Part shown: positions 39,639-58,690 of the stretch, piece by piece
Numbering within the stretch: position 1 is the stretch's first letter
Layout of the letters: each line of letters starts with the position of its first letter
Origin: Streptomyces monashensis
GTDB lineage: Bacteria > Actinomycetota > Actinomycetes > Streptomycetales > Streptomycetaceae
DNA: 64,000 nt
Direction of reading: 5' to 3'
Assembly: GCF_001866665.1 (NCBI RefSeq)
Contig: NZ_MLYO01000062.1
Span: forward strand, 124,001-188,000
Position numbers and translations under genes: made by a program
The notes under the pieces: generated by a model
Databases searched by the model: none
Told to the model about the DNA's origin: nothing
Seen by the model: only the letters and a program-made list of their open reading frames with translations

Positions 39639-40135
39639 TCATGGCGTGGGATTCGTACTGGTTGTCTGAAGCGTTTCCTCAGGTTGCCGCTCCTGAGCGT
39701 CTCGCCCACCCACACGGTCCATCTCGCGCCATTCCGGCCGCAGCCCGGCCAGGTTCGTGGTGAGGAAGTACGCGGCCCCGCCGGCGAGCAACACCGGCGC
39801 AAGTCCGACGGAGGCCACCGCCGCCCCAGCGATCAGTCCACCGAGAGGGATACCGGCCCAGGCCAGCGAGTCGCCAAGGGCGTTGACTCGGCCCAGCATC
39901 CGGCGCGGTACCCGCTCGAACAGGACGGCCCCCAGTACCGGATTCAGGAAGCCCGCCCCGAATCCACTGACGGCGAACACGGCCAATACCGCCCCCATCG
40001 GTGCATCGGAGGCGAGAATCAGGAATCTCGGCGCTCCGGCCAACAGGAACCCGGTGAAGAACACCACCCTGCGCGGCAGCCGGTGCGCGGCCGCCGCAGC
40101 AATCAGACTCCCAGCGACTGTCGCGGCTCGGCACG
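39639..40135 (-). pseudogene. MFS transporter, C-terminal remnant
   Basis: In one frame without a good start, AATVAGSLIAAAAAHRLPRR is followed by about four hydrophobic segments and the loop FERVPRRMLGRVNALGDSLAW, the same family signature as the exporter at the window start. The N-terminal ~260 residues are absent. It is a truncated exporter gene. Confidence 0.65.
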
Positions 40136-40405
40136 ACGAGCGAGCGGTAGCGACCGTAGGGCCGGGCGTGCCGCTACGACCGCTCCCTGGCGACCGTCAA
40201 GGGGGGTGCTCACGGAGGACCGGGACGGCTGCTGAGGCCGGTTGCGTGCGATGGGTCACTCCGGGCGTGATTTACGCGTCCGTAACGCGGAAGTCTCCGG
40301 CGGGATCAAGAGCTCCTTGAGAGTGATCGTCACGGAAGTCGCTTTCCGTATCGCAGAAGTCTATCCCCGGCTTCTGCGTGTTCACCTCCCCTCTAGGAGT
40401 GCCCC

Positions 40406-41764
40406 GTGCCGCCGACTGCACCCTCCCTGCCGCGACGCGTCGCACGCATACTGCGTACCTCTCTCTTCGCGCAGGTCCTCTGCGCGCTCGTGCTCGGAAT
40501 CGTCATCGGGAAGCTGTGGCCCGGCTTCGCCGCGGATCTCAAGCCGCTCGGCGACGGTTTCACCCGGCTCATCAAGACGATCATCTCGCCGCTGGTGTTC
40601 TGCGTGGTCGTCGTCGGCATCGCCAAGGCCGGTGACCTCAAGGCCTTCGGCCGGATCGGGCTCAAGGCCCTGATCTGGTTCGAGGTCGCGAGCACCGCGG
40701 CGCTGATCATCGGCCTGGTCGCCGCCAACGTCGTCCAGCCCGGCTCGGGGATGCATGTCGACCCGTCCACCTTGAGCACCAAGGCGGTCGACGCGAAGAC
40801 GGGCGGCGCCGCGCTGCCCTCGACGACCGAGTTCGCCGTCAACGCGCTGCCCACCAGTTTCATCGGCGCGTTCGCCGAGAACTCCCTGCTCCAGGTGCTC
40901 ATCCTGGCCTGTCTGGTGGGCGCCGCGCTGCTCCACCTCGGCCACACCAAGGTGCCGAAGGTCCTGCCCGCCGTCGAGCAGGCCCAGGAGATCATCTTCG
41001 TGATCGTCGGCTTCGTCATGCGCCTGGCCCCGATCGCGGTGTTCGGCGCGATGGCCGTCCTCATCGGCCAGTACGGGCTCGGCGTGATCAAGACCTACGG
41101 CGAGCTGATCATCCTGTGCTACGCCGCCGCCGCGCTGTTCGTCGCGCTGCTCGCCGTCGCCCTGCGCATCGTCACCGGGCTCAGCCTCTGGAAGTTCCTG
41201 CGCTACATCCGCGAGGAGATGCTTCTCGCGCTGGGCACCGCGTCCACCGAGTCCGTCATGCCGCGCGTGATGCAGAAGCTGCGCGGGGCCGGCGCCCGCG
41301 ACGACGCCGTGGGCCTGGTGCTGCCCACCGGCTACTCCTTCAACCTCGACGGCGCCTCGCTCTACCTCTCCATCGGCACCCTGTTCATCGCCCAGGCCGT
41401 CGGCGTCGACCTCAGCCTGAGCCAGCAGATCACCGTCGTCCTGGTGCTGATGCTGACCAGCAAGGGCATGGCGGGCATCCCCGGCTCCGCCTTCCTCGCC
41501 CTGTCCGCGACCGCCTCCTCGCTCGGTGCCATCCCCGCCGGGGCGGTGGCACTGCTGCTGGGCGTGGACCGGATCATGGACTCGATGCGGGTGGTGACGA
41601 ACCTGCTCGGTAACTGTGTCGCCGTCTTCGCCGTCTCCCGCTGGGAGGGCGCGCTGGACGTGGAACACGCGAAGAAGGTGCTGGACGGTTCAGCTGCCGC
41701 TGCCGCTGCCGCTGCCGAGTCGGAGGCCTCGGTGCCAGAACCGTCGGTGCGTGTCGCCCAGTAG
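40406..41764 (+). CDS. dctA: Dicarboxylate/amino acid:cation symporter (DAACS)
   Basis: A 452-residue transporter related to DctA/GltP that imports C4-dicarboxylates or glutamate with H+ or Na+. Visible are TRLIKTIISPLVFCVVVVGI, the HP1 serine motif ALGTASTESVMPRVM, PTGYSFNLDGASLYLS, LVLMLTSKGMAGIPGSAFL (HP2) and the last TM with RIMDSMRVVTNLLGNCVAVF carrying substrate-binding Asp and Asn. The GTG start has CTAGGAG ahead. A polyalanine stretch precedes the end. About 130 bp upstream is a small inverted repeat TTACG-N4-CGTAA (40272-40285). Confidence 0.88.
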   Translation: MPPTAPSLPRRVARILRTSLFAQVLCALVLGIVIGKLWPGFAADLKPLGDGFTRLIKTIISPLVFCVVVVGIAKAGDLKAFGRIGLKALIWFEVASTAALIIGLVAANVVQPGSGMHVDPSTLSTKAVDAKTGGAALPSTTEFAVNALPTSFIGAFAENSLLQVLILACLVGAALLHLGHTKVPKVLPAVEQAQEIIFVIVGFVMRLAPIAVFGAMAVLIGQYGLGVIKTYGELIILCYAAAALFVALLAVALRIVTGLSLWKFLRYIREEMLLALGTASTESVMPRVMQKLRGAGARDDAVGLVLPTGYSFNLDGASLYLSIGTLFIAQAVGVDLSLSQQITVVLVLMLTSKGMAGIPGSAFLALSATASSLGAIPAGAVALLLGVDRIMDSMRVVTNLLGNCVAVFAVSRWEGALDVEHAKKVLDGSAAAAAAAAESEASVPEPSVRVAQ

Positions 41765-41800
41765 CCCGGGGCGTGTTGTCTCGTGGGGGCTGCGGGTACG

Positions 41801-41832
41801 TGGGGGCTGCTCGCGCGGTTCCCCGCGCCCCT
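41801..41832. repeat. Common Streptomyces intergenic hairpin motif
   Basis: TGGGGGCTGCTCGCGCGG followed by TTCC and CCGCGCCCCT forms an interrupted stem. Elements of this form recur between genes in many Streptomyces genomes and often follow stop codons as terminators; here it is 37 bp after the symporter stop. Confidence 0.55.
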
Positions 41833-41911
41833 ACGACGAGCTCGTAACAGGATCTTGCTGAGGTGTCCTGGTCGGGCGTGACCGACGGGATGATTCGGCC
41901 GTTCGTGTCGT

Positions 41912-43255: not shown

Positions 43256-43321
43256 CCTTCGCGGACGAGTTTTCCGGCAAGAGCAAGGTCACCGAGTTGC
43301 GGCCCTGGCCGGATGAGCGTT

Positions 43322-44503
43322 TCAGAGTGTCGGCAGGCCGAGCGCGATCATGGTGGACGACAGTCCGTGCCAGGTGCGTACGTCCCAGTCGGTGAGTTGC
43401 TGCCAGCGCTGAAGGCGGTACTTCACCGTGTTCGGATGCACGTGCAGGACGCGGGCTGTCGCGGTGAGCGAGAAGCCGTTCTCGGCGAACCTGAGCACGG
43501 TCTCTGCCAGGTCGGGGTGTTGCCGCGCGGCCTCTCGGCGCGGTTCGAGCAGCACCGCGAAGCGTTGCGCCGTGGGTGCCAAGGTGGCGAGCAGCCAGTG
43601 GTCTGCGAAGGATTTCACCTGTCCCGGATCCGCCAGGGGCAGCGCCGCTCTCGCGTCCGCCATGCTCATCGCGGCGCCGGGGAGCCCGGTCCGCGGCAGG
43701 CCGATGCCGAAGCTCGCGTCAGGGTTCTGCCGCTGGGCCGCTTCGACCACGGCCTGCGGCGAGATGTCCTGGACCAGGGCGATCATGAGGTTGCCGCGGG
43801 TCGCGCAGCGCAGCGTGCCCGGCCACCGGCGGTGCCGCAAATCCATCATGCGCTCGTCGGTCCAGGCCTCGGCCGGTGAGCACAGCGCCTGGAACCCGCC
43901 GGCAGGGTCGAAGGTGAGGGCGGCGGCCAGTTGCTCGAGGTCGACGCCGGCGGGCGCGGCGGTGGCAAGTCCGTCGAGGAACTGGTGGGTCAGCCTCAGG
44001 AGCGTGGCATCGGCGGCGCGGACGGCAACGCCGTACGCCTCGGCGGCCGCGCTGCTGGAAGCCTGCACCCACGTCCAGACCATCCCGACGATCGACAGGA
44101 GTTGCGCGCCGGCCCGGGTGTCGTGCGACTGAGCACGCGCGAGCAGCACGTTCCACATCTCGCGGTAGCCGACGTGGTAGGCCTCGATGAGGGCGTGCAG
44201 CGGCAGGCCGGTGGCGGCGCGTTCGGCTCCGAGCGCATGTGCGGCCTCGACCTCTTCGCGGGTGGGTGAGCGGCGTGCGGCCACGCCGGTCAGCAGTCCC
44301 TGGTAGTGACGGGTGACGTCGCGTTCCTGCTGCTCGCGGTCCACGATTCCGTAGCTCGGGATCTCGAGCCGTATGCGGTCGACGATCCTCGGGATCACCG
44401 TGGGCAGTTCTGCGGCGAGTGATGCGCAGAGTTCGACGACGGGCTGCCACGCCGCGGCGGTGTCGCCCTGCGCCCCGGCCCCTTCGGTCACGGGCTCCAC
44501 CAT
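43322..44503 (-). CDS. PucR-type transcriptional regulator
   Basis: A 393-residue regulator with an N-terminal helical sensor part (VVELCASLAAELPTVIPRIV, then ALIEAYHVGYREMWNVLLAR), a middle GGDEF-like region and a C-terminal PucR helix-turn-helix (FAENGFSLTATARVLHVHPN followed by TVKYRLQRWQQLTDWD). ATG 44503 has GGGAGGGGCC directly ahead. It diverges from the amino-acid dehydrogenase-MFS pair and so probably controls that pair and perhaps the hydroxymandelate operon. PucR proteins often sense a metabolite of the pathway they govern; the ligand is unknown. Confidence 0.85.
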   Translation of the reverse strand: MVEPVTEGAGAQGDTAAAWQPVVELCASLAAELPTVIPRIVDRIRLEIPSYGIVDREQQERDVTRHYQGLLTGVAARRSPTREEVEAAHALGAERAATGLPLHALIEAYHVGYREMWNVLLARAQSHDTRAGAQLLSIVGMVWTWVQASSSAAAEAYGVAVRAADATLLRLTHQFLDGLATAAPAGVDLEQLAAALTFDPAGGFQALCSPAEAWTDERMMDLRHRRWPGTLRCATRGNLMIALVQDISPQAVVEAAQRQNPDASFGIGLPRTGLPGAAMSMADARAALPLADPGQVKSFADHWLLATLAPTAQRFAVLLEPRREAARQHPDLAETVLRFAENGFSLTATARVLHVHPNTVKYRLQRWQQLTDWDVRTWHGLSSTMIALGLPTL

Positions 44504-44610
44504 GGCCCCTCCCGATATGTGGATTTCGTAGTGCTCTCTCTCGCGATTGCATGGCAGCGGCGCTGCGACCACGCCTCGACGATAGGAGATCAAGAACGCG
44601 CACGCTGCAG

Positions 44611-44629
44611 TTTTGTGGACTTCGCAAAA
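44611..44629. promoter_or_regulatory. Inverted repeat in the divergent pucR-dehydrogenase region
   Basis: TTTTGTGGACTTCGCAAAA has five-base arms (TTTTG/CAAAA) around a 9-base spacer, in an otherwise GC-rich 260-bp intergenic region. It is a candidate operator for the PucR protein. Confidence 0.4.
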
Positions 44630-44764
44630 ACGGTGCGGGGAAGTTCTCGGATTCGGTTCTGGTCCCGCTGACCGGCCGTCAGCAGGCTGGACAGCGGACG
44701 CCGCAGGGGCCTGGCCTGGCCCCCGGGTGAGGGGTCCTGAAGATCCGGGTGCACGGGAGGACGC

Positions 44765-45832
44765 GTGGAGACTCCGATGGAGTTCAGTCATGAATCGGTC
44801 GTGGTGCGACGCGGGCGGCGAAGCCGGCTGCCGATCGTCGTCGCAGTGCACTCCACTGCTCTCGGCCGTGCGGTCGGCGGCTGCCGGATGTGGGCCTACG
44901 ACAGCTGGGAGGACGGCCTGCGCGACGCGCTGCGCCTGTCGGAGGGCATGACCCGTAAGTGCGCTGCCGCCGGACTGCCGAACGGCGGCGGCAAGACGGT
45001 CGTGGTCCTTCCCACCGGGCGGAGCCTCACCGCGGACGAACGCCGCGCGGCGCTGCACGATGTCGGCGACATCGTGGCGGAGTTCGGCGGCGCCTACGTG
45101 ACCGGCCCCGACGCGGGTACCGGACCGGCCGACATGGCGGCCATCGGCGAACGCACCGAGTACGTGTTCTGCCGGCCGCAGGCCGCCGGCGGAAGCGGTG
45201 ACCCCTCGCCGTTCACGGCCCTGGGTGTCGTCGCCGCGCTGCGCTCGACCTGCCTGGCGCTGTTCGGCTCGCCGGCCTTGGCGGGCAGGAAATTCGCGGT
45301 GATCGGTCTCGGACACGTCGGGGAGCAGATAGCCCGGCAGTTGGCGGCCGCGGGAGCCGGCCTGATCCTGAGCGACGTCGACCCGGCGAAGCGCTCCCTC
45401 GGCGCGGAACTGGGCGCGGTGTTCGCCGAACCCGACGCAGCGGCCACCGCCGAGGTGGACGTGCTCGTCCCCGCCGCGCTCGGCGGCCTGCTGACCCGGG
45501 ATCTGGTGGCGCGGCTGCGCTGCGGCGCGGTGGCGGGCGCGGCCAACAACCAACTGGCCGATCCCGGCGTGGCGGAGCTGTTGCGGGAGCGCGAGATCCT
45601 CTGGGCCCCCGACTACATCGCCAACGCCGGCGGTGTCGTCAACGCGGTCTCTCGCGAAGTCCTGGGCGACGAACCGGAGGAAGCGGTCAAGCGCATCGAG
45701 TCGATCGCCGACACGCTGACCGGCCTGTTCGAAACGGCCGCGCGCACGAAGATCACGACCGCGCAGGCCGCCGACGACCTCGCGCGCCGGCGCCTTGCCG
45801 CACCGGTTCCCACCGCGCCGGAACCGGCATGA
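44765..45832 (+). CDS. Glu/Leu/Phe/Val-type amino acid dehydrogenase
   Basis: A 355-residue NAD(P)-dependent dehydrogenase that interconverts an alpha-keto acid and an L-amino acid with ammonia. Catalytic-domain residues are present: K65 in MTRK, K77 in GGGK and D116 in TGPDAGTG, equivalent to the two Lys and the Asp of leucine dehydrogenase. The Rossmann motif GLGHVG is at 181-186. The Streptomyces valine dehydrogenase is of this length and kind. Start GTG 44765 has GGGAGG upstream; ATG 44777 is possible. Its position before an arylglyoxylate-producing operon suggests amination of an aromatic keto acid (inference). It overlaps the next gene by 4 bp. Confidence 0.85.
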   Translation: METPMEFSHESVVVRRGRRSRLPIVVAVHSTALGRAVGGCRMWAYDSWEDGLRDALRLSEGMTRKCAAAGLPNGGGKTVVVLPTGRSLTADERRAALHDVGDIVAEFGGAYVTGPDAGTGPADMAAIGERTEYVFCRPQAAGGSGDPSPFTALGVVAALRSTCLALFGSPALAGRKFAVIGLGHVGEQIARQLAAAGAGLILSDVDPAKRSLGAELGAVFAEPDAAATAEVDVLVPAALGGLLTRDLVARLRCGAVAGAANNQLADPGVAELLREREILWAPDYIANAGGVVNAVSREVLGDEPEEAVKRIESIADTLTGLFETAARTKITTAQAADDLARRRLAAPVPTAPEPA

Positions 45833-47019
45833 ACCCCCGGGTGTACGTGCTGGCCCTGGCCACTTTCACCGTCGGCACCGAGGGGTATGTCATCGCCGGT
45901 GTGCTGCCGGAGGTCGCGCACTCCATGCATGTGTCCGTGTCGGTGTGCGGGCAGCTGGTCACGGTCTTCGCGCTGGTCTACGCCCTGGGCGGGCCGCTGC
46001 TGATCGGCGCGTTCCGCAGAGTGCCGCCGAAGTCGGTGCTGATCGGGGCCATGCTGGCTTTCGCGCTCAGCAACGCCCTCGCGGCGTGCGCACCCGACTA
46101 TGCCGTGCTCGCCGCGGCGCGCGTGCTGGCCGCGTTGAGCGCGGCCCTGCTGGCCGCGCCGGCCGCCGCCGCCGCGGCGGCGCTGTGCCGTCCGCAGGAC
46201 ATGCCCAACGCGATCGCGGTCACCGCCAGCGGCAACGCGCTGGCGCTCACTCTGGGCGCGCCGATCGGCACCTTGATCGGCGGACTGCTCGGCTGGCGGG
46301 GTACGTTCCTGTTCGTCACGGTCCTGGCGCTGGTCACTGCGTTGATGCTGGTGGCTTTGCTGCCGACGGTGCCGGTGGCTCCCGTCGGCACCGGCCGGGC
46401 CGAACTGCTGCGCAACCCGGCCGTCCGGTGGAGTCTGCTGACCACCTTCGGGGTCTTCCTCGCCGCGTACTGCACCTACACGTATCTTGCGCCGATCGTC
46501 GAGCGGGCGACCGGGATGGGAAGCCAGGGCGTCGCGGCGCTGATGATCGTCTTCGGTGCGGGTGCGTTGCTGGCCGGGCGCACGATCGGCAGGATCCTGG
46601 TCAAGGTGCCCGTGGCACGGGTGCTGCGCGTGGCTCTCTCGCTGATGGCGCTGCTCCTCGCAGCCATTGCCGTCGGCACCGCCTGGCATCCCCGCACCAC
46701 CGCGGCGATCGCCGCGTTTCCGGTGCTGTTCTGCCTGGGTGCCGCCTGGTGCTGCGGCGGGGTCTCCCAGCAGACACGGATCGCCGCCCTGGCGCCCGCG
46801 CAGCGGTCCCTGGCGCTGGGGGTGCACTTCTCCGTGCAGTTCCTGGGAGTCGCCGTCGGCGGTGCCGTCGGCGGCCTCGCCCTGTCGACGGGGGGACCGG
46901 TGGCCGTTCCAGCCCTGTCTGCGCTGATCGCGTGCGTATCGCTGCTCTCCGTGCGGCGGACCGTCCCGGAACCGGCCGAGACGCCGGCTCGCGAGGCGCC
47001 CGCGACGATCCCGCGGTGA
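45829..47019 (+). CDS. MFS exporter (DHA1/AraJ-like)
   Basis: A 396-residue membrane protein with about 12 TM segments. TM1 reads LALATFTVGTEGYVIAGVLP, the usual start of the AraJ-type DHA1 exporters, and motif-A-like FRRVPPKSVLIG follows TM2. A second motif near GWRGTFLFVTVLALVTAL supports an exporter. Translation is coupled to the dehydrogenase by ATGA, so it probably exports that enzyme's product or a toxic relative. A clean terminator follows the stop. Confidence 0.85.
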   Translation: MNPRVYVLALATFTVGTEGYVIAGVLPEVAHSMHVSVSVCGQLVTVFALVYALGGPLLIGAFRRVPPKSVLIGAMLAFALSNALAACAPDYAVLAAARVLAALSAALLAAPAAAAAAALCRPQDMPNAIAVTASGNALALTLGAPIGTLIGGLLGWRGTFLFVTVLALVTALMLVALLPTVPVAPVGTGRAELLRNPAVRWSLLTTFGVFLAAYCTYTYLAPIVERATGMGSQGVAALMIVFGAGALLAGRTIGRILVKVPVARVLRVALSLMALLLAAIAVGTAWHPRTTAAIAAFPVLFCLGAAWCCGGVSQQTRIAALAPAQRSLALGVHFSVQFLGVAVGGAVGGLALSTGGPVAVPALSALIACVSLLSVRRTVPEPAETPAREAPATIPR

Positions 47020-47057
47020 TCACCACGCGGGAGTGAGCAGGGGGACCAGCCCGTTAC

Positions 47058-47091
47058 CCAGAAGCGCCTTCGCATGCGGAGGCGCTTCTGG
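47058..47091 (+). terminator. Terminator after dehydrogenase-MFS pair
   Basis: An 11-bp perfect stem (CCAGAAGCGCC/GGCGCTTCTGG) with a 12-nt loop starts 39 bp after the MFS stop. It separates this pair from the hydroxymandelate operon. Confidence 0.8.
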
Positions 47092-47470
47092 TGTGTCAAG
47101 GGTTGCTCCTGGGGTTCGGAGGCTTCGACGAGTTGGCACCGCCGTTCGGTGAAATCCACAGAATGGCAGGCCTCAGATGTGCGAGAACTGCAACCGGCGA
47201 TTACGTATTGCCTGCTCGGCGCGCACAAGATGTGCCGTGAAACAAGGACTTAATATCGACTCCGTTGTGCTGCCGAATGCGGCCATTGTCAAGTCGCATG
47301 AGGGGCCTGTAAGTTCGAGTTGAACGAGCAATAAAGGGGCCCGCGGCTCTCCTTAGCCGAGCCGCGGCTGCCAATGGGGTGCGTCAGCCGCAGGTCGGGG
47401 CGTTCTGGGGGATTGCTTATTCGAAGTCCCCTCTGATTTGGGTTGACTTCAAAGCGTTTGGAGAGCTGCC
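47092..47470 (+). promoter_or_regulatory. Long leader of the hydroxymandelate operon
   Basis: This 380-bp region has lower GC content than its surroundings and holds the operon's promoter. A 9-bp hairpin CCGCGGCTC/GAGCCGCGG is at 47341-47367, about 100 bp before hmaS. A 48-codon frame (47177-47323, MCENCNRRLRIACSARTRC... ending EGPVSSS) lies in front of the hairpin; it lacks a good ribosome site and has poor codon bias, so it may be chance or a leader peptide. No other element is evident. Confidence 0.4.
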
Positions 47471-48547
47471 ATGCAAGTTTTGCGTGATGCTCGGTTGGAT
47501 CACGTCGAGTTCTATGTCGAAGACATTGACGCGACCGTCAAAGATCTCGCGTCGAAATACGCCTTCCAGCTAGCGGGAACGTCGAGCGCGAGCATCCAGT
47601 CCCACCGCTCGATTGCGTTGAGGCAAGGGGGCATCGTGCTCCTGCTCACCCAGGGGCTGACCGAGGATTCCCCGGTGTCCGCCTGGGTCCGCACCCATGG
47701 CGACGGCGTGGCCAACATCTGGCTGCGCACGCCGTCGGTCGATGCGGCCTTCGCGGAGGCCGTGGCCAACGGCGCCGAAGCCGTGCTTCAGCCGGTCGAG
47801 CGCGCCGGTGTGCTGGTCGCCGGTTTCGGTGCGTTCGGCGATGTCCAGCACGGCCTGGTCGAACGCCCGGATGATGCCGCACCTGGCCAACTGCCGCCGG
47901 GCATCGTCCCGGCACCGGAGTCCGCGGCGCAAGTGCCCGCGGAATTCGGTGTGCTGGACCACTTCGCCTACCTCGTCGGAGCCGGCGACCTTCGGAACGC
48001 GGTGAAGTTCTATGAATCCGTCCTGGGTTTCTCGGTGATTTTCGAGGACCGGACCATGGTCGGCGGTCAGGGTATGGATTCCCAGGTCGTGCGCAACGCC
48101 GCGGGCGACGTCACGTTCACCATCGTCGAGTCCGCCGCGAAGCCGGGGCAGTCCCTGGACTTCATCGCGGAGTTCGTGCAGAACAACGCCGGGCCGGGGG
48201 TCGAGCACATCGCGTTCAGCTGCGCGGACATCGTGACGGCCGTTCAGAAGCTGCGCGGGCGCGGGGTGGACTTCCTCGACACTCCGGGCGCTTACTACGA
48301 CCTGCTGCCGGACCGCCTCGGCGGCGTAGCGCGTCACGAGCTCGAGCAACTGCGCGAACTGGGCATCCTCGCCGACCGGGACCACGGCGGCGAGTTGTTC
48401 CAGATCTTCACGCACTCCACGCATCCGCGCAACACCTTCTTCTTCGAGGTGATCGAGCGGGTCGGTGCCGAGACCTTCGGCAAGGGCAACGTCAAGGCGT
48501 TGTTCGAGGCCAGGAAGGCGGAGCGGAGCCAGCGGGAGGAACGGTGA
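47471..48547 (+). CDS. hmaS: 4-Hydroxymandelate synthase-like dioxygenase
   Basis: A 358-residue Fe(II) dioxygenase of the HPPD fold. The metal ligands are H164 (LDHFAYL), H246 (VEHIAFS) and E326 (FFFEVIER). It is closer to hydroxymandelate synthases than to HPPD: SKYAFQLAGTSS, SHRSIALRQGG, TPGAYYDLL and DHGGELFQIFTHSTHPRNTF follow the synthase pattern, and length and N-terminus fit. The synthase turns (4-hydroxy)phenylpyruvate and O2 into (4-hydroxy)mandelate plus CO2, the first step towards (hydroxy)phenylglycine. It starts the five-gene operon; GTGA overlap with the oxidase gene. Separating it from HPPD rests on sequence resemblance and on the neighbouring oxidase. Confidence 0.83.
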   Translation: MQVLRDARLDHVEFYVEDIDATVKDLASKYAFQLAGTSSASIQSHRSIALRQGGIVLLLTQGLTEDSPVSAWVRTHGDGVANIWLRTPSVDAAFAEAVANGAEAVLQPVERAGVLVAGFGAFGDVQHGLVERPDDAAPGQLPPGIVPAPESAAQVPAEFGVLDHFAYLVGAGDLRNAVKFYESVLGFSVIFEDRTMVGGQGMDSQVVRNAAGDVTFTIVESAAKPGQSLDFIAEFVQNNAGPGVEHIAFSCADIVTAVQKLRGRGVDFLDTPGAYYDLLPDRLGGVARHELEQLRELGILADRDHGGELFQIFTHSTHPRNTFFFEVIERVGAETFGKGNVKALFEARKAERSQREER

Positions 48548-49683
48548 CGGAGGTGACGGAGACCGGGGAACCGAGTCGGCCGCAATCCGTGGCCGAGTTC
48601 TCCGACGCGGCCTGCGACGTGATATCGCCCGCCGCTTGGGATTTCATCTCCGGCGGCAGCGGTGCCGAGCGGAGCGTGGCGGCCAATCTGCGCGCCTTCG
48701 ACAACCTGTATGTGGCGCCGCGGATGCTGCGGGACGTATCGCATGTGTCGACCGCATCCCGCCTGGTCGGCACCGAATCGAGCCTGCCGGTGGCCATCGC
48801 GCCGATGGCCTACCACGGGCTGGTACATCCGCAGAGCGAGGCGGCCACCGCACGCGCGGCGAAGACGGCGGGCGTACCGTTCACCGTGGCGATGCTCAGC
48901 GGGACACCGGTGGAGCGCATCGCCGAGTCGGGTGCCGACCTGTGGTTCCAGCTGTATTGGCTGCGGGACCGGGGCGCCACGAAGGAACTGGTGAGCCGGG
49001 CCGAAGCCGCGGGCTGCCAGGCGCTCATGCTCACCGTCGACGTGCCCCGACTGGGCCGCCGCCTCAAAGACCAGCGCAACGGCTTCGCGCTGCCGCCCGA
49101 CGTCTACGCCGCCCACTTCCGCGGCGAGGCCGCGATCGGAGCGCAACGGGCCCCGGCCGGAGGTTCGGCCGTCGCCTCGCACACCACCGTGATGTTCGAC
49201 CCCTCATTGGCGTGGAGCGACATCGAATGGCTGCGGGAGCGCACCCGGCTGCCGCTCGTCGTGAAGGGCATCCTGACGCGCGAGGACGCCCTCATGGCGA
49301 CGCGCTCGGGCGTGGACGCGCTGGTGGTCTCCAATCACGGCGGGCGTCAGCTCGACGGAGCCGTGCCCGGACTCACGGTGCTGCCGGAGATCCGGGCCGC
49401 AGTGGGAGACACGGTGGACGTACTCGTCGACGGCGGCATCCGATCAGGCTCGGACGTACTCAAGGCGCTGGCTCGCGGCGCCGACGGCGTTCTGCTGGGG
49501 CGGCCGATCCTTTACGGGCTCGCCGTCGGCGGCGAGTCGGGCGTCGACGCCGTGCTGTCGCTGCTGCGCGAGGAACTCGAGACGGATCTCGCCCTGTCCG
49601 GCTGCCGTACCGTCGGCGAAGCCGCCCACCTGACAACCTACGAATTCAGCGCTTCCAGCAGTACGGGGACTGCATCATGGTGA
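48544..49683 (+). CDS. hmo: 4-Hydroxymandelate oxidase-like FMN enzyme
   Basis: A 379-residue FMN-dependent alpha-hydroxy acid oxidase. The family segments are AAWDFISGGSGAERS, PVAIAPMAYHGLVHP, WFQLYWLRDRG, TVDVPRLGRR, LVVKGILTREDA, and the active site VVSNHGGRQLDG with catalytic H265 and R268, then VLVDGGIRSGSDVLKALARG. It should oxidise mandelate or 4-hydroxymandelate to the arylglyoxylate with O2, giving H2O2. The pairing HmaS-Hmo is the known entry to 4-hydroxyphenylglycine in glycopeptide clusters. The aminotransferase HpgT that usually follows is absent; a dehydrogenase is found instead. GTG start overlaps hmaS by 4 bp. Confidence 0.85.
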   Translation: MTEVTETGEPSRPQSVAEFSDAACDVISPAAWDFISGGSGAERSVAANLRAFDNLYVAPRMLRDVSHVSTASRLVGTESSLPVAIAPMAYHGLVHPQSEAATARAAKTAGVPFTVAMLSGTPVERIAESGADLWFQLYWLRDRGATKELVSRAEAAGCQALMLTVDVPRLGRRLKDQRNGFALPPDVYAAHFRGEAAIGAQRAPAGGSAVASHTTVMFDPSLAWSDIEWLRERTRLPLVVKGILTREDALMATRSGVDALVVSNHGGRQLDGAVPGLTVLPEIRAAVGDTVDVLVDGGIRSGSDVLKALARGADGVLLGRPILYGLAVGGESGVDAVLSLLREELETDLALSGCRTVGEAAHLTTYEFSASSSTGTASW

Positions 49684-50222
49684 AGCAGAGCGTCATCAAG
49701 ACGCTCGGACCGTCGGGGACGGACGCGCACGCGGAGGCCCTCCGCATCGGAGGCGAAGACATCGAGCTCTTCCCCTCCTTCCGCGCCGCCATCGACGATT
49801 CCGAGACACACGGCGGCAGGGCGCTGGTCGCCGCCGGATATCTGGACATGAACAACGGATCAGTGGTCGACTCCTGGGTCGACCTTCATTTCAGCAAGCT
49901 CAGGTCGATGACGATGGTCGGAGTCTGGGAGTCGCCGACCAAGCCCATGTGCGTCGCGGTCCATTCGGACTTCTCCGGCGGGATCGCGGACATCCGCACG
50001 GCGGCGTCTCACCCGGCCACCCTGCAGTTCGTGCGCGAGCACATGCCGGCCGACGTGGTGGTCTCGACGGTCCGGGCGAAGCCGGAAGCCGCACGGCTGG
50101 TGAGCGAGCAGGCCGTCGATGCCTGCATCGGATCGGTGGACGTCGTCGAATCCATCGAGAATCTGAAGATCTTGAAGAAGCTGGAGGCGACGATGGTGTG
50201 GTGCCTGTATGAGCATCGCTGA
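49677..50222 (+). CDS. BacA/prephenate-dehydratase-like protein
   Basis: A 181-residue protein with the periplasmic-binding-like fold shared by prephenate dehydratase and BacA. KTLGPSGTDAHAEAL opens it. Seen later are PTKPMCVAVHSDF, TAASHPATLQFVREH and AARLVSEQAVDACIGSVDVVE, in the same order as BacA (prephenate decarboxylase of bacilysin synthesis). The catalytic TRF triad of true dehydratases is not present, and there is no ACT regulatory domain. It could make a non-aromatic or aromatic precursor from prephenate, or be a structural partner. It starts inside the hmo stop region (7-bp overlap) and ends 14 bp inside the next gene, so it belongs to the operon. Confidence 0.6.
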   Translation: MVKQSVIKTLGPSGTDAHAEALRIGGEDIELFPSFRAAIDDSETHGGRALVAAGYLDMNNGSVVDSWVDLHFSKLRSMTMVGVWESPTKPMCVAVHSDFSGGIADIRTAASHPATLQFVREHMPADVVVSTVRAKPEAARLVSEQAVDACIGSVDVVESIENLKILKKLEATMVWCLYEHR

Positions 50223-52350
50223 CGTCGCCGAGGACGCGCGGGTCCGGATCGGGGCCCTGCGGGTCGCGCGCGCGTTCCGGGATTTCGTGGAACGGGAGGC
50301 TCTCCCCGGCATCGGCGTGGCTGCCGGGGAGTTCTGGGCCGGATTCGAGCGGCTGATCGACGACCTCGCGCCGCGCAATCGCGCACTGCTGGACCGGCGC
50401 CGCGCACTGCAGGACAGCGTGGACGCCTGGCACACCGAGCACCGCGCCGAGGACTTCGACGCGGACGCGTATCGCCGGTACCTGACCGAGATCGGCTACC
50501 TGGTTGCGACACCGGAGCCCTTCTCCGTGGACACCGCCGGTACGGACGCGGAGATCACGCGGATCGCCGGTCCGCAGCTGCTGGTGCCGGTGGTCGACGA
50601 GCCCTTCGCGCTCGAAGGGGCCAACGCCCGATGGGGATCGCTGTATCGCGCCCTGTACAAGACCGACGTGATTCCTCAGGGCGACACCGGTGAACGCCGC
50701 GAGGCGGTCATCGACTTCGCCCGAGGCCTTCTCGACGTGATGGCGCCGCTCGACGAGGGCTCGCACGCGAAATCGACGCGCTATCACGTCGTCGACGGTG
50801 CGCTGCGCGTGCAGATGGCCGACGGCACGTTCAGCACACTGGCCCCTGCGGCGCGGCTGGCCGGATTCCGCGGTGATCCCGCTCGGCCGTCGGTCGTGCT
50901 GATCGAACATCATCACCTGCACGTCGAGATCCAGTTCGACCCGGATGGCGCGTTCGGCCGTCTCGACGCGGCCGGCATCCAGGATGTGGTCCCGGAATCC
51001 GGGATCTCCACGATCATGGACTTCGAGGACTGCGTCGCTGCCGTTGATGTCACGGACAAGATCGAGGTCTACCGCGCTTGGTTGCGCCTGATGCGCGGCA
51101 GCTACACCACGCGGCACGGTGGCGGCATGCATCCCGATCGCCGGTACACCGCCCCGGACGGCAGCCGCATATCGCTGCCCGGGCGGGCACTGCTGTTCGC
51201 CCGGATCGTCGGGCAGTTGATGACCACGGACGCGATCCTCGACCACGAGGGCGCCGAGGTGCCGGAAGTCATCGTCGACGCGGTGATCGCCACCCTCGCG
51301 GCGCTGCACGACCTGCGGGGCGACACCTCCCGCGTGAACTCCCGTGCGGGCGCGGTGTATCTGGCGGTGCCGAAACTGCACGGTCCTGACGAGTTCGCCT
51401 TCATCGATGAGCTCTTCGGTCGCATCGAGCGCTTGCTCGGACTGCCGGACCACACGGTGAAACTCGGTCTCCTGGACGAGGAGCGGCGCACCACCGTCAA
51501 CCTGGCGGCGTGCCTCGAGGCGGTACGGCATCGAGTCGTCTCCACCAACAACGGCCTGCTCGACCGAACTGCCGACGAGATCCACACGTCGATGGCGGCC
51601 GGGCCCATGGTGCCCAAGGCCGCCATGAAGACCCAAGACTGGCGGATGGCGTACGAGCAGTGGCACGTCGACACCTGCCTGGCCCATGGCCTTCAGGGGC
51701 GGGCACTGATCGGGCTGGGCATGTGGCCCACACCCGAGCGGATGAGCGACCTGTTCGCGTCCAAGATCGGCCAGCTCTCTCTGGGCGCGGGGACGACCTG
51801 GGTGCCGACCGCCGTCGCCGCGACTCTGCACGCCGTGCACTACCACCAGGTGGACATCGCCGACGTGCAGCGCGAGATCGCGGCGGCCGGACCGCGACGT
51901 TCGCTCGGCGAGCTCCTGCGCCCGCCGGTCGCCGAAACCCTCACCGGCCTGCGGAGGGAGTTGGACGCCCACTGCTACACCGTTCTCGGCTATGCGGTGC
52001 GCTGGGTCGAGCGTGCCGTCGCCAGTGCCCCGATGCCCGCCTTCGACGGTGTCGTCGTACTCGAAGACCGCGCCACGATACGGATGTCGACCCAACTGCT
52101 GGCGAACTGGCTGCACCACAACGTGATCACCGTGCGGGATGTGGACGAGGGTCTACGCCGGACGGCGGCGGTCCTCGACGAGCGCCTCCACGACGAACCG
52201 GGTTACCGGCCGCTGCTCCCTGCACGGGAAGCCTCCCTCGCGTGGCAGGCGGCCCGCGAACTGATCATCCGGGGCGCGACGGCGCCGAACGGCTATACCG
52301 AACCGGCGCTGTACCGATTCCGTCGCGAACAGAAGGCCCGGACAGCGTGA
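50209..52350 (+). CDS. Malate synthase G homologue with altered substrate pocket
   Basis: The 713-residue protein aligns along its length with malate synthase G (about 720 residues), which condenses glyoxylate with acetyl-CoA. Catalytic residues are kept: R332 (LLFARIVGQ), E424 (LLDEERRT), D452 (LLDRTADE) and D620 (LEDRAT). Neighbouring positions differ: from memory E. coli GlcB reads IRNVGHLM where this has ARIVGQLM, KPKMHGP versus VPKLHGP, and FINTGFLD versus STNNGLLD. Several bulky side chains near the glyoxylate site are thus smaller or polar. In an operon that makes arylglyoxylate, condensation of that keto acid with acetyl-CoA to an arylmalate is a reasonable hypothesis. A plain glyoxylate role is the alternative. 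Confidence 0.8.
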   Translation: MSIADVAEDARVRIGALRVARAFRDFVEREALPGIGVAAGEFWAGFERLIDDLAPRNRALLDRRRALQDSVDAWHTEHRAEDFDADAYRRYLTEIGYLVATPEPFSVDTAGTDAEITRIAGPQLLVPVVDEPFALEGANARWGSLYRALYKTDVIPQGDTGERREAVIDFARGLLDVMAPLDEGSHAKSTRYHVVDGALRVQMADGTFSTLAPAARLAGFRGDPARPSVVLIEHHHLHVEIQFDPDGAFGRLDAAGIQDVVPESGISTIMDFEDCVAAVDVTDKIEVYRAWLRLMRGSYTTRHGGGMHPDRRYTAPDGSRISLPGRALLFARIVGQLMTTDAILDHEGAEVPEVIVDAVIATLAALHDLRGDTSRVNSRAGAVYLAVPKLHGPDEFAFIDELFGRIERLLGLPDHTVKLGLLDEERRTTVNLAACLEAVRHRVVSTNNGLLDRTADEIHTSMAAGPMVPKAAMKTQDWRMAYEQWHVDTCLAHGLQGRALIGLGMWPTPERMSDLFASKIGQLSLGAGTTWVPTAVAATLHAVHYHQVDIADVQREIAAAGPRRSLGELLRPPVAETLTGLRRELDAHCYTVLGYAVRWVERAVASAPMPAFDGVVVLEDRATIRMSTQLLANWLHHNVITVRDVDEGLRRTAAVLDERLHDEPGYRPLLPAREASLAWQAARELIIRGATAPNGYTEPALYRFRREQKARTA

Positions 52351-52387
52351 TGCGGCCGAACCGACGAGAGCGAGAAGGGGAGACCTC

Positions 52388-53350
52388 GTGCACGCAGTGG
52401 TGGTGACCGAGCCCGGCGGCCCTGATGCCCTTCGTTACCGGCGGATGCCGGACCCGGTTCCCGGGCCGGGCGAGGTGCTGGTGCGGACCAGAGCGATCGG
52501 CGTGAACTACCGCGACGTGTACGTGCGCAGAGGGGAGTACCCCGCTGAACTCCCCGTTCCGGGCCTCGAGGGAGCAGGCGAGGTCGTGGCGGCGGGCGAG
52601 GGAGCCGAGGTCGCCGTCGGGGATCGAGTGGCCTGGGCGTACGGCAGGGCCAGCTATGCCGAACTCGTGGCCGTGCCGGCCGGTCAGTGCGTGCCGGTGC
52701 CCGACGGGATCGACTGGCAGGTCGCAGGTGGGGCGCTGCTGCAGGGAATGACCGCGCACTACCTCTTGGAGTCGGTGTACCGACCGACGCCGGGAGACGC
52801 GATCCTGGTTCACGCGGGTGCCGGCGGCATGGGCCAGCTTCTGGTGCAGTGGGCCGCGGCGCGAGGTGCCAAGGTGATCACCACCGTGTCCACCGACGAG
52901 AAGGAGAAGCTCGCCCGGGAGGCCGGGGCCCGGCACGTGCTGCGATACGGAGACGATCTCGCCGAACACGTCCGGGAACTGACGGGCGGCGAAGGTGTCT
53001 CCGCCGCCTACGACGGCGTCGGTGCGGCCACCTTCGAGTCGAGCCTCGCCTCGCTTCGGCCGCGGGGCACACTCGCGTTGTTCGGATCCGCGAGTGGCCG
53101 AGTCCCGCCGTTCGATCTGCAGCGTCTCGCCGAACCGGGTTCGCTGTTCGTGACCCGGCCGGTGCTGCCGCACTTCGTCCGTACCCGCGCCGAGGTGCTG
53201 TGGCGCGCGAACGAGGTCTTCAGCGCGATATCCGAAGACATACTGCGCATACGGTTCGGTGGCACCTACGCCTTGTCCGACGCGGCGCAGGCCCATCGGG
53301 CGATCGAGTCCCGCGCCACAGCCGGTTCACTCGTGCTGCTGCCGGCATGA
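52388..53350 (+). CDS. Zinc-free MDR / quinone oxidoreductase-like enzyme
   Basis: The 320-residue protein has the MDR fold: VTEPGGPDALRYRRMPDPVP, AIGVNYRDVYVRRGEYP, the NADPH-binding HAGAGGMGQLLVQWAAARGA and AYDGVGAATFESSLASLRPRG. The Cys ligands of zinc alcohol dehydrogenases are missing, placing it with QorA/enoyl reductases that reduce quinones or conjugated C=C bonds. A reductase at the end of this operon may act on an unsaturated product. GTG start 37 bp after the malate synthase homologue with AGAAGGGGAG upstream. The following ~240 bp hold no clear gene. Confidence 0.82.
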   Translation: MHAVVVTEPGGPDALRYRRMPDPVPGPGEVLVRTRAIGVNYRDVYVRRGEYPAELPVPGLEGAGEVVAAGEGAEVAVGDRVAWAYGRASYAELVAVPAGQCVPVPDGIDWQVAGGALLQGMTAHYLLESVYRPTPGDAILVHAGAGGMGQLLVQWAAARGAKVITTVSTDEKEKLAREAGARHVLRYGDDLAEHVRELTGGEGVSAAYDGVGAATFESSLASLRPRGTLALFGSASGRVPPFDLQRLAEPGSLFVTRPVLPHFVRTRAEVLWRANEVFSAISEDILRIRFGGTYALSDAAQAHRAIESRATAGSLVLLPA

Positions 53351-53589
53351 TGGTGGACCTTGGCTTGACTCTGTTGGGGATCTTGGAGTTTCCCTGTGCG
53401 CCGACTTGGTCAGCGGGCGTGCTCGGGGCTGTTTCGCAGGCCGATGCAGTTGTCGAGGTGCACGTTGTCGCTGTGCCTGCCGAAAAACTCATCCGTCCTG
53501 GTGGGGGCTGGTGTACGGGTGGTGTCGAGCGCGGGCGCTCGGGCGGGTGCTCTGGGCGCCTGGTGAGTGCCCCGGCAGGATGATCTGTC

Positions 53590-53780
53590 GTGCTGCTTCG
53601 ACTTGCCTGTCTGGGTGTGGCGAACGTGTTCACCCTGCTGCGGCTGCTGCCGGTGAGCAACCAGGACAAGGACGCAGAGATCCTTCGCGCTGCGTCATCA
53701 GATCACCGTGCTGGAACGCCGAATCGGCCGGGATCGGGTGCGGTTCGCCCCGAGTGACCGGGTGTTCCAGGCGTGCCTGA
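53590..53780 (+). pseudogene. N-terminal fragment of an integrase-core transposase
   Basis: GTG 53590 begins LLRLACLGVANVFTLLRLLP and SNQDKDAEIL; one frame further on the similarity continues RHQITVLERRIGRDRVRFAP and ends soon after. A frameshift and truncation have destroyed it. The LER-(Q/R)-x-G-x-x-x-x-(R/K)-F-A-P pattern is shared with the remnant at 42518, so related elements flank the hydroxymandelate cluster in the same orientation. Confidence 0.65.
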
Positions 53781-56744: not shown

Positions 56745-57257
56745 ATGACTGTGGTGCCGCAGGGCGAAAGCGGCATCTCGCGCGGTAGCACGAGCAGCCT
56801 GTACGACGTCCTGGACCTGATTCTGGACCGCGGCCTCGTCATAGACGTCTTCGTCCGTGTGTCCCTCGTCGGTATCGAGATACTCAAGATCGACGCCCGC
56901 ATTGTCGTTGCCAGTGTGGACACCTACCTTCGCTTCGCCGAGGCCTGCAACCGCCTCGACCTCGAAACAGGCAGCAAACAGCCAACCCAGCTCACCGATC
57001 TCGTCGGCGAGATCACCGAAGGCGGGGCGGAGGGCAAGTCCAAGGGGGCTCTGACCGGCGCCGTCGAGGCCGTCAAGGACACCCTGACAGGTGACGGCGG
57101 TGAAGAAGGGGGCGACGCGGATGAAGACGAGGAGGAGGACTACGAGGAGCAGGACAACGAGGGCGGCGAAGGCGAACAGGAGGAGCCCGAATACGAGGAG
57201 GAGCCCCGGCAGCGTCGCCGACAGGCCAGGCGGACTTCCCGGCGGCAGAGGGAGTGA
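56745..57257 (+). CDS. gvpA: Gas vesicle structural protein GvpA with long acidic tail
   Basis: The core (about residues 12-75) has the GvpA shell sequence: [20 protein letters not shown], then [25 protein letters not shown] with helix-strand-strand-helix. After it comes a linker and an acidic, Gly-rich tail of about 90 residues ending in a basic [15 protein letters not shown]-type segment. Most GvpA proteins are about 70-75 residues; this form is 170 and resembles the actinobacterial long type. ATG 56745 is directly behind GGGAGG; the frame starts earlier without a site. It forms the vesicle wall. Confidence 0.88.
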
Positions 57258-57259
57258 CC

Positions 57260-57973
57260 ATGGCCGTCTACGTCTACTCCATCACCTCGAAGGACCACCC
57301 GATGCGGCTGGACGACGTCCACGGCGTCGGCGAGCCTTCCAGCCCGCTGCGCACAGTGACAAACGGATCGCTGTGTGCGGTCGTCAGCGACGCGCCCGAG
57401 GACCTGCGTGCCCGGCGGCGTGATGTGCTGGCTCACCAGGAAGTCCAGGAGCGGCTGATGGTCGAGGGTGCCGTGCTGCCGCTGCAGTTCGGCATGACGG
57501 CCGAGAGCGACGAAGCCGTACGCGCAGCCCTGGAGGACAGGGCCGACGAATTCCGGGAACGACTGCGAAGCCTGGAAGGCGCCAAGGAGTACAACCTGAA
57601 GGTCTCCTGGGAGGAAGGGGCGTTGCTGCGCCGGATCCTGCTGGAGTCCGAGGAAGCCCGTGAACTGAACGCCGCCACTCGCGGCGGCAACGGCACCCCG
57701 CAGATGTCACTCGCGCTCGGCGAACTGGTCGCGCGGGAAGCCGAGGTCCGGCAACAGGCGCTCGCCACGGGCATCGTCGAGGCTCTGCGCCCGTACGCGC
57801 GCGACGAGACCCCCTCGCCCCCCGGCGGCCGTGACTTCCTCAACATCTCCTTCCTGGTCGCGGCGGACGAGGAGGAGATGTTCCAAGCCACGGGGACCAG
57901 ACTGGCCAACCAATTGGGCGAGGAATGCGAGGTCCGACTGCGCGGCCCTCTGCCCCCGTACAGTTTCGTCTGA
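57260..57973 (+). CDS. gvpF: Gas vesicle protein GvpF
   Basis: A 237-residue GvpF/L-family protein: AVYVYSITSKDHPMRLDDVH starts it, followed by the helical core LAHQEVQERLMVEGAVLPLQ and EYNLKVSWEEGALLRRILLE, ending with LRGPLPPYSFV. The GP-x-PPYSF ending is the standard C-terminus of the family. GvpF is a minor shell or assembly protein. It starts 2 bp after gvpA. Confidence 0.9.
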   Translation: MAVYVYSITSKDHPMRLDDVHGVGEPSSPLRTVTNGSLCAVVSDAPEDLRARRRDVLAHQEVQERLMVEGAVLPLQFGMTAESDEAVRAALEDRADEFRERLRSLEGAKEYNLKVSWEEGALLRRILLESEEARELNAATRGGNGTPQMSLALGELVAREAEVRQQALATGIVEALRPYARDETPSPPGGRDFLNISFLVAADEEEMFQATGTRLANQLGEECEVRLRGPLPPYSFV

Positions 57974-58261: not shown

Positions 58262-58690
58262 GTGTCGGAATCCCCCGCGAACCGGCTGAGCGCGTACCCG
58301 TCCAGGGCGACGGCCTCGTACGGCTACGGACAAGGTTCCTCCGCGAACCTGGCCGACATCCTCGAGCGCGTCCTGGACAAGGGAATCGTCATTGCCGGGG
58401 ACATCCGGATCAATCTCCTGGACATCGAGTTGCTCACCGTCAAGCTCCGGCTCATCGTCGCCTCCGTCGACAAAGCCAGGGAAATGGGAATTGACTGGTG
58501 GGAGCACGATCCGTCGCTTTCCTCCCGGCCTGGCGAGCGTGCACTGGCCGAAGAGAACAGACGGTTGCACGCGGAGATCGAGACGCTGAAGGGCGAGTGT
58601 GAGCTGCCGCCCGACGAGGAGCGGACCGCCGCACGGCGCCGCCCGAGGTCCTCCACCACGCGACACCGGAACGGGGCTGCCGATGACTGA
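58262..58690 (+). CDS. gvpJ: Gas vesicle protein GvpJ
   Basis: The 142-residue protein has a GvpA-like core (ANLADILERVLDKGIVIAGD, then IRINLLDIELLTVKLRLIVASVDKA) with a long helical tail. GvpJ is a minor shell protein that helps nucleation or sets vesicle shape. GTG 58262 is preferred to GTG 58253, as GAGGTGG precedes it. The stop overlaps the next start by 8 bp. Confidence 0.85.
   Translation: MSESPANRLSAYPSRATASYGYGQGSSANLADILERVLDKGIVIAGDIRINLLDIELLTVKLRLIVASVDKAREMGIDWWEHDPSLSSRPGERALAEENRRLHAEIETLKGECELPPDEERTAARRRPRSSTTRHRNGAADD

Follow-up and report, generated by a model that had tools for sequence, protein, structure and literature searches.

An eight-gene cassette in Streptomyces monashensis as a candidate route from prephenate to a small, probably non-aromatic acid

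What does a bacterium make with enzymes of the hydroxyphenylglycine pathway when they are encoded next to a malate synthase, and from which precursor? This question is raised by a locus in Streptomyces monashensis (assembly GCF_001866665.1, 10.25 Mb in 218 contigs). The window that we analyzed is a 64,000-nucleotide stretch of contig NZ_MLYO01000062.1 (positions 124,001 to 188,000), to which all coordinates refer unless another locus is named. Eight genes, the PucR regulator counted, span positions 43322–53350 (Table 1). PucR is divergent from a pair encoding an amino-acid dehydrogenase (leucine dehydrogenase type, LDH) and an MFS transporter. A further 451 bp separate this pair from five genes (47471–53350) encoding HmaS, Hmo, a BacA-like protein, a malate-synthase-G-like enzyme (MSG), and an MDR-type reductase. 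Neighboring genes overlap by 4 nt (LDH/MFS and HmaS/Hmo), 7 nt (Hmo/BacA-like), and 14 nt (BacA-like/MSG), and a gap of 37 nt lies between MSG and MDR. An earlier note on this DNA had described eight consecutive genes in overlapping operons with a divergent regulator, a layout that the coordinates confirm, and had proposed that they form an arylglyoxylate pathway. We argue instead, with confidence about evenly divided, for an undescribed route that would lead from prephenate to a small, probably non-aromatic acid and would include an altered malate synthase.

The identities of HmaS and Hmo come first. HmaS scores higher against the Amycolatopsis orientalis hydroxymandelate synthase (HMS) 2r5v than against the Streptomyces avermitilis HPPD 1t47 (318 versus 172 bits). 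Across 296 genomes, HmaS-like matches reach at least 234 bits, and the next matches reach at most 187. In a tree of both families, the HmaS and HPPD groups separate at 100/100 with the cassette HmaS on the HmaS side; it stands beside 2r5v at 87/70, a join that the program flagged as a possible long-branch effect. At the position of HPPD Phe337 and HMS Ile335, which we take to be key to telling the two apart, the cassette proteins carry Val (7/7), other HmaS proteins Ile (9/9), and HPPDs Phe (10/10). This comparison used eight of the nine genome HmaS rows (L083 was dropped) plus 2r5v, together with 10 of the 20 genome HPPD rows; the cassette HmaS follows the HmaS residue at 16 of the positions listed. 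Hmo, in a tree without a named glycolate-oxidase row, falls in a clade with the hydroxymandelate oxidase (HMO) 5zzp and three genome rows at 99/98. In that tree, the long branch formed by rows L108 and L109 is an artefact of cropping, the retained segments coming from the wrong region of long proteins. Per domain, Hmo scores 358 bits against HMO 5zzp, 284 against glycolate oxidase, 218 against mandelate dehydrogenase, and 185 against lactate oxidase; the tandem lactate oxidase 7f22 totals 371 bits from two domains of 185. The copy from Nocardia sp. alder85J (L029), with an HmaS of 148 aa and a broken Hmo frame, was left out of both trees and of the HmaS residue comparison. These placements support the hydroxymandelate-synthase and hydroxymandelate-oxidase types that the earlier note had assigned from sequence; a grouping with true HPPDs and lactate or glycolate oxidases, which the note had named as refuting its proposal, is not supported. 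PMC3182895 describes the A. orientalis HmaS converting phenylpyruvate to mandelate, with affinity far below that for its natural substrate, and use of the Streptomyces coelicolor Hmo to convert mandelate to phenylglyoxylate. Since known HmaS and Hmo enzymes act on phenyl substrates, their chemistry needs no phenolic hydroxyl.

The same facts could be accommodated by an aromatic route. HmaS and Hmo would turn host phenylpyruvate or hydroxyphenylpyruvate into (hydroxy)phenylglyoxylate, from which LDH would make (hydroxy)phenylglycine or MSG would make a 2-arylmalate, while the BacA-like protein would only steer flux. Both enzymes do cluster with proteins of known aromatic specificity, and the known pair just cited handles phenyl substrates. 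However, the cassette HmaS deviates from other HmaS proteins at positions presumably near the metal-binding His: Val/Ile-Cys at 164–165 (2r5v numbering) becomes Tyr-Leu, and Gln240, which HmaS and HPPD have in common, becomes Glu. Prephenate dehydrogenase is not in the eight-gene set, and the BacA-like gene overlaps both Hmo and MSG and adjoins every strong MSG match in the genus (4/4; 246 genomes). On balance, we regard an aromatic route as doubtful.

The BacA-like protein is the only one of the eight to which Pfam and NCBIfam assign no family. It had zero matches in either database and nothing at E < 0.1 among PDB sequence profiles, and it was identified by fold and profile–profile comparison only. 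Its AlphaFold (AF2) model (pLDDT 88) has prephenate dehydratases (PDTs) as best matches. Foldseek gave 6vh5 at E 4e-10 and a TM-score of 0.52, the top matches having TM-scores of 0.5–0.6 and root-mean-square deviations of 5–6.5, and a VIA alignment reached Z 13.7 to 3mwb (166 residues at 4.5 Å). Given these values, and periplasmic binding proteins that score close behind (VIA Z 10–11.4, equal to several PDTs), the fold by itself is only moderately specific. An hhalign comparison of the protein's profile with PDT domains gave probability 85 and E 6e-6 over 149 columns. At 181 aa, the protein has the length of the catalytic domain and is too short for an ACT domain. The PDT motif TRF, which in 15/15 PDT loci is found late in the catalytic domain, reads TMV (5/8) or SMV (3/8) in the cassette rows; this site was matched by its position before the domain end, and the hhalign alignment stops short of it. 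ENSVEG is not conserved in the BacA-like proteins and is invariant in a PDT alignment of 10 of those 15 loci, which a script had picked for TRF; the 15/15 count is free of that bias. The missing TRF motif led us to reject prephenate dehydratase as the identity of this protein. The prephenate decarboxylases BacA, SalX, and AerD have the PDT fold, no ACT domain, and no TRF. The cassette protein shows the same combination, which makes it a candidate non-aromatizing prephenate decarboxylase, as judged by these family features rather than against the BacA, SalX, and AerD sequences. Relatives at 40–46% occur at three other loci (L020, L021, and L022, at around 10 kb), where the other cassette genes were not found within 20 kb. 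The one at L020 lies near an aminotransferase, an NAD-binding dehydrogenase, an epimerase, and a nonribosomal peptide synthetase (NRPS) condensation domain, and these settings are possibly other prephenate-derived clusters.

It is useful to compare the cassette with a second set of genes in the same genome. Contig C139 (L169:7648–13175) holds together HmaS, PhyH, prephenate dehydrogenase (332 bits, cut-off 294), a class I/II aminotransferase, and Hmo, which by their sequences have the make-up of a hydroxyphenylglycine (Hpg) set. Prephenate dehydrogenase and the aminotransferase are absent from the eight cassette genes. The cassette thus reads as a C139-like set in which the BacA-like protein takes the place of prephenate dehydrogenase and LDH that of the aminotransferase, with MSG and MDR added. 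It differs in the same ways from the Hpg set of glycopeptide antibiotics (HmaS, Hmo, HpgT, and prephenate dehydrogenase), although its HmaS and Hmo fall in the same clades and would work by the same principle, in which an arylpyruvate is shortened to a glyoxylate. The selected flank proteins scanned, a subset of the flank open reading frames, included no NRPS. The dehydrogenase in the usual place of the aminotransferase and the lack of an NRPS had both been pointed out in the earlier note, and its pathway assignment survives in part: the glyoxylate-forming logic of HmaS and Hmo is supported, but "aryl" probably does not hold. Because the BacA-like protein replaces prephenate dehydrogenase, and the decarboxylase family that it resembles makes no aromatic ring, the keto acid is probably alicyclic and ketomycin-like, with a cyclohexenyl or hydroxycyclohexenyl ring, rather than aryl.

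MSG had likewise been noticed as an addition to the pathway, and its pocket residues and distribution in the genus now make an ordinary malate synthase function improbable. It is a full-length homologue with 51% mean identity to 29 ordinary actinobacterial MSGs, which were taken as loci from the 54 genomes with a match (weak matches and our own genome included). Against these we set nine cassette rows, eight of them distinct (L035 equals L026), using Mycobacterium tuberculosis numbering, in which R339 falls at 340 of the row used for numbering. The catalytic and Mg-binding residues E274, D275, R339, E434, D462, and D633 are retained in 9/9 cassette rows; G459, L461, Y492, M515, P543, E632, and T636 are also kept. 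By contrast, the lid and pocket differ: F455 becomes Ser or Ala, I456 Thr, T458 Asn, lid residue F460 Leu, S544-P545-T546 Thr-Ala-Val/Ile, and M631 Leu. The canonical residues occupy these sites in 29/29 ordinary MSGs (28/29 for I456) and in 0/9 cassette rows. C619 is also replaced, by Ser, which is found in 2/29 ordinary MSGs as well. The residues of M. tuberculosis GlcB used for this mapping are those named in PMC5207166 (R339, T458, G459, F460, L461, D462, Y492, M515, P543, C619, M631, E632, D633, and T636), from which the roles of R339, D462, D633, T458–L461, M515, and M631 were also taken. This pattern suggests an enzyme whose catalysis has been kept and whose acceptor pocket has been changed. 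Sixty positions conserved (at least 90%) among the 29 ordinary MSGs are fixed differently in the cassette copies. Of 358 positions that ordinary MSGs conserve, 103 are altered in the cassette MSG and 14 in a Pseudomonas MSG, which is closer overall (70% versus 51%). Among the 80 that lie no more than 8 residues from key sites, the numbers are 25 and 1; this comparison is not matched for overall divergence. Within the genus, 5 of the 246 genomes have an MSG match: four strong ones, our genome included, which are all cassette copies, and one weak one (E 6e-4). Because a malate synthase A (848 bits, cut-off 594) is encoded elsewhere on this contig, at a distance of ~163 kb, the glyoxylate shunt does not require the cassette MSG. 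On these two grounds, a plain glyoxylate-shunt malate synthase was set aside.

A route can be drawn from these parts, with its reactions, step order, ring structure, and end product all predicted from sequence. The BacA-like protein would decarboxylate prephenate without aromatization to dihydro-hydroxyphenylpyruvate, and MDR would reduce the ring enone. HmaS would then remove the keto-acid carboxyl and hydroxylate the adjacent carbon (R-CH2-CO-COOH to R-CH(OH)-COOH), and Hmo would yield R-CO-COOH, a (hydroxy)cyclohexenyl glyoxylate. From this keto acid and acetyl-CoA, MSG would form a 2-carbocyclyl malate; LDH would convert the keto acid into the corresponding glycine and back; and the MFS protein would export the product, which is likely to be the 2-carbocyclyl malate and/or the glycine. 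More specifically, and only tentatively, an MSG that accepts bulky keto acids could give rise to a family of 2-cyclohexenyl malates that are secreted and may mimic 2-isopropylmalate; ketomycin or its glycine would then be an intermediate or co-product. A small PDT-fold protein, a reductase, and an exporter are shared with the prephenate decarboxylase pathways to bacilysin (BacA), salinosporamide (SalX), and aeruginosins (AerD). To our knowledge, none of those pathways uses HmaS, Hmo, or a malate synthase.

Ketomycin is 3-cyclohexeneglyoxylic acid, and by this structure the predicted keto acid would be of the same type. An alternative is that cyclohexenyl glyoxylate (ketomycin) or cyclohexenylglycine is the end product, with MSG serving for self-protection or as a side enzyme by disposing of the toxic keto acid. 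The gene set would fit the needs of such a pathway, namely a prephenate decarboxylase, a reductase, HmaS, Hmo, an exporter, and keto/amino interconversion. Ketomycin has been reported from Streptomyces, and Takeda 1984, "Biosynthesis of ketomycin," is cited in PMC5924784; genes for its biosynthesis were not found in the portions of the open PMC literature searched. If ketomycin lies on the route, the cassette would be its missing gene cluster. However, ketomycin leaves the cassette MSG unexplained, and the MSG gene overlaps the BacA-like gene within the biosynthetic operon rather than standing beside the exporter. Loss of the ring hydroxyl would also call for one more reduction, to which no gene can clearly be assigned, and we consider ketomycin unlikely as the end product.

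The distribution of the cassette bears on whether these genes act together. The BacA-like protein matches 8 of 150 genomes, our own included, three of the eight weakly (E ~1e-4 to 1e-3). Scanning genome contigs with this protein via short peptide patterns, which finds close relatives only, gave seven loci, in Streptomyces sp. GQFP, S. alanosinicus, "Actinobacteria bacterium" OK074, S. eurythermus, S. achromogenes, Nocardia aurantia, and Nocardia sp. alder85J. All seven (five Streptomyces-type, two Nocardia) have all eight genes in identical order and orientation at 71–99% identity, the conservation of gene order on which the earlier note had staked its proposal. DNA similarity to the window starts at 43288–43332 and in six of the seven loci stops at 53343–53388; in S. 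alanosinicus (L024) it extends to 53772. Across the eight genes, dN/dS is 0.145–0.383 (two comparisons). In alder85J (L029:8228–9977), HmaS lacks its first 230 codons, and the damage to it and to Hmo reflects either a decaying copy or an assembly error.

The cassette sits in at least four genomic settings: the window and S. alanosinicus, OK074, three Streptomyces, and the two Nocardia. The surroundings of the window and of S. alanosinicus are rearranged relative to each other, and in the latter a transposase-like gene (below Pfam cut-offs) follows the cassette. Identity between S. eurythermus and S. achromogenes is 92% in the cassette and 96% in the flanks, and between GQFP and S. eurythermus it is 91% and 83%. 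Because cassette and flank identities disagree, horizontal exchange is favored, and the eight genes look like a self-contained unit for biosynthesis that is passed from genome to genome. Beside this, a dicarboxylate transporter region, 97% identical, lies to the left of the cassette in the window (40122–41838) and to its right in S. alanosinicus (L024:14761–16465), which is a rearrangement. An ARAGORN tRNA-Thr call at 53531–53772 overlaps DNA resembling the start of the S. alanosinicus transposase-like gene, and this tRNA may be spurious. In both Nocardia copies (L028:303–3312 and L029:1051–4233), a P450-like gene and a gene for a ~560-aa protein without a Pfam match (in L028 also without a PDB match) adjoin PucR and are possibly two additional cassette genes.

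In the three Streptomyces loci, the cassette lies between a glyoxylate carboligase (1182 bits in S. eurythermus) and an acyl-CoA synthetase. This neighbor fits an operon for the breakdown or detoxification of aromatic or alicyclic acids, in which MSG would be an ordinary malate synthase acting on glyoxylate formed en route, and PucR regulators frequently control catabolic genes. Against this, two of 20 carboligase loci (L165 and L166) have the carboligase and the acyl-CoA synthetase only 0.9–1.3 kb apart, with no room for the cassette, so the carboligase is an older neighbor of the site than the cassette is. The other 18 show no acyl-CoA synthetase within the stretch available. The cassette transporter is of the efflux type, the MSG pocket residues are unlike those of 29/29 ordinary MSGs, and HmaS/Hmo pairs are biosynthetic in all cases known to us. 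A catabolic operon is highly improbable in our judgment.

Several points count against the prephenate-derived biosynthetic route that we prefer. The changes in MSG run through the entire protein, with no enrichment around the active site (25/81 versus 78/277, p 0.68). Because they are not concentrated there, altered specificity is something that we infer. The presence of the BacA-like gene in all seven loci was given by construction, as it was the search query, and only the MSG searches are independent. NCBIfam labels HmaS 4HPPD (303.6 bits, cut-off 277), and the protein carries the HPPD rather than the HmaS residue at five listed positions, those beyond these five and the 16 given above being peculiar to the cassette. 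Despite that label, trees and scores do not support true HPPD or lactate/glycolate oxidase identities. Finally, a one-carbon shortening followed by a two-carbon addition would be unusual chemistry, and the route gives no reason for branching between LDH and MSG.

The genes also appear to be regulated as a unit. Aligning the two intergenic regions (PucR–LDH and MFS–HmaS) revealed a shared candidate operator with three copies at the cassette (Table 1); the first of these alignments left out the Streptomyces L025 row, where the region is 963 bp long. The pattern TGTGGANTYC has six matches in the window against 0.67 expected. Three fall inside the two intergenic regions and three outside them, the scan admitting chance sites. 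In the seven related loci (~20.5 kb each), 17/17 matches lie in the two intergenic regions and none elsewhere; in L027, L028, and L029 they are confined to the PucR–LDH region. The pattern was derived from these same alignments and so is no independent test, but its absence elsewhere is still telling. Because the candidate operator occupies the two intergenic regions and is absent from the rest of the seven loci, the genes look like one regulon, and the sequence pattern suggests that the cassette is probably under a single regulator, PucR.

If the proposed route is right, it would be relevant in several ways. First, it would join two well-studied routes, those of hydroxyphenylglycine and of the prephenate decarboxylases. 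Second, it would show the recruitment of malate synthase G from central metabolism to secondary metabolism. Third, the cassette appears to be a complete, compact, and transferable pathway with no NRPS or polyketide synthase among its eight genes, and gene-cluster tools could overlook pathways of this sort. The enzyme types are all known; a description of the cassette, and the combination with its BacA-like and LDH replacements and altered MSG, were not found in the open PMC literature searched and appear to be new. The cassette predicts 2-carbocyclyl malates or cyclohexenyl glycine or glyoxylate as products, and it offers candidate genes for ketomycin.

Table 1. Genes and candidate operator copies of the cassette, in window coordinates
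Feature	Position	Strand	Evidence
PucR-family regulator	43322..44503	-	Pfam HTH_30 1e-15, GGDEF_2; kept in 7/7 loci
Candidate operator copy 1, TGTGGATTTCGTA	44518..44530	+	Intergenic alignment and motif scan
Candidate operator copy 2, within near-palindrome TTTTGTGGACTTCGCAAAA	44614..44626	+	Intergenic alignment and motif scan
LDH, leucine/phenylalanine-dehydrogenase-type amino-acid dehydrogenase	44765..45832	+	Pfam ELFV_dehydrog; top PDB match leucine dehydrogenase 6acf, 245 bits
MFS efflux-type transporter, Cmx/CmrA-like	45829..47019	+	Pfam MFS_1 7e-37; NCBIfam cmx_cmrA 178 bits (below cut-off 400)
Candidate operator copy 3, located upstream of the HmaS operon and differing from the 13-base form by one mismatch	47148..47160	-	Intergenic alignment and motif scan
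HmaS, hydroxymandelate-synthase-type dioxygenase	47471..48547	+	PDB 2r5v 318 bits versus HPPD 1t47 172 bits; tree; residue positions
Hmo, hydroxymandelate-oxidase-type FMN enzyme	48544..49683	+	PDB 5zzp 358 bits; tree
BacA-like prephenate decarboxylase candidate, 181 aa	49677..50222	+	PDT fold (AF2 model, Foldseek, VIA, hhalign)
MSG, malate-synthase-G-like with altered pocket	50209..52350	+	NCBIfam malate synthase G model NF002825 869 bits (cut-off 565); TIGR01345 800 bits (below cut-off 989)
MDR/quinone-oxidoreductase-type NAD(P)H reductase	52388..53350	+	Pfam ADH_N, ADH_zinc_N; NCBIfam PRK10754 249 bits (below cut-off 348)

Farther along the window, two GvpL/GvpF genes at 57254–57973 and 58599–59507 are likely members of a gas-vesicle cluster.

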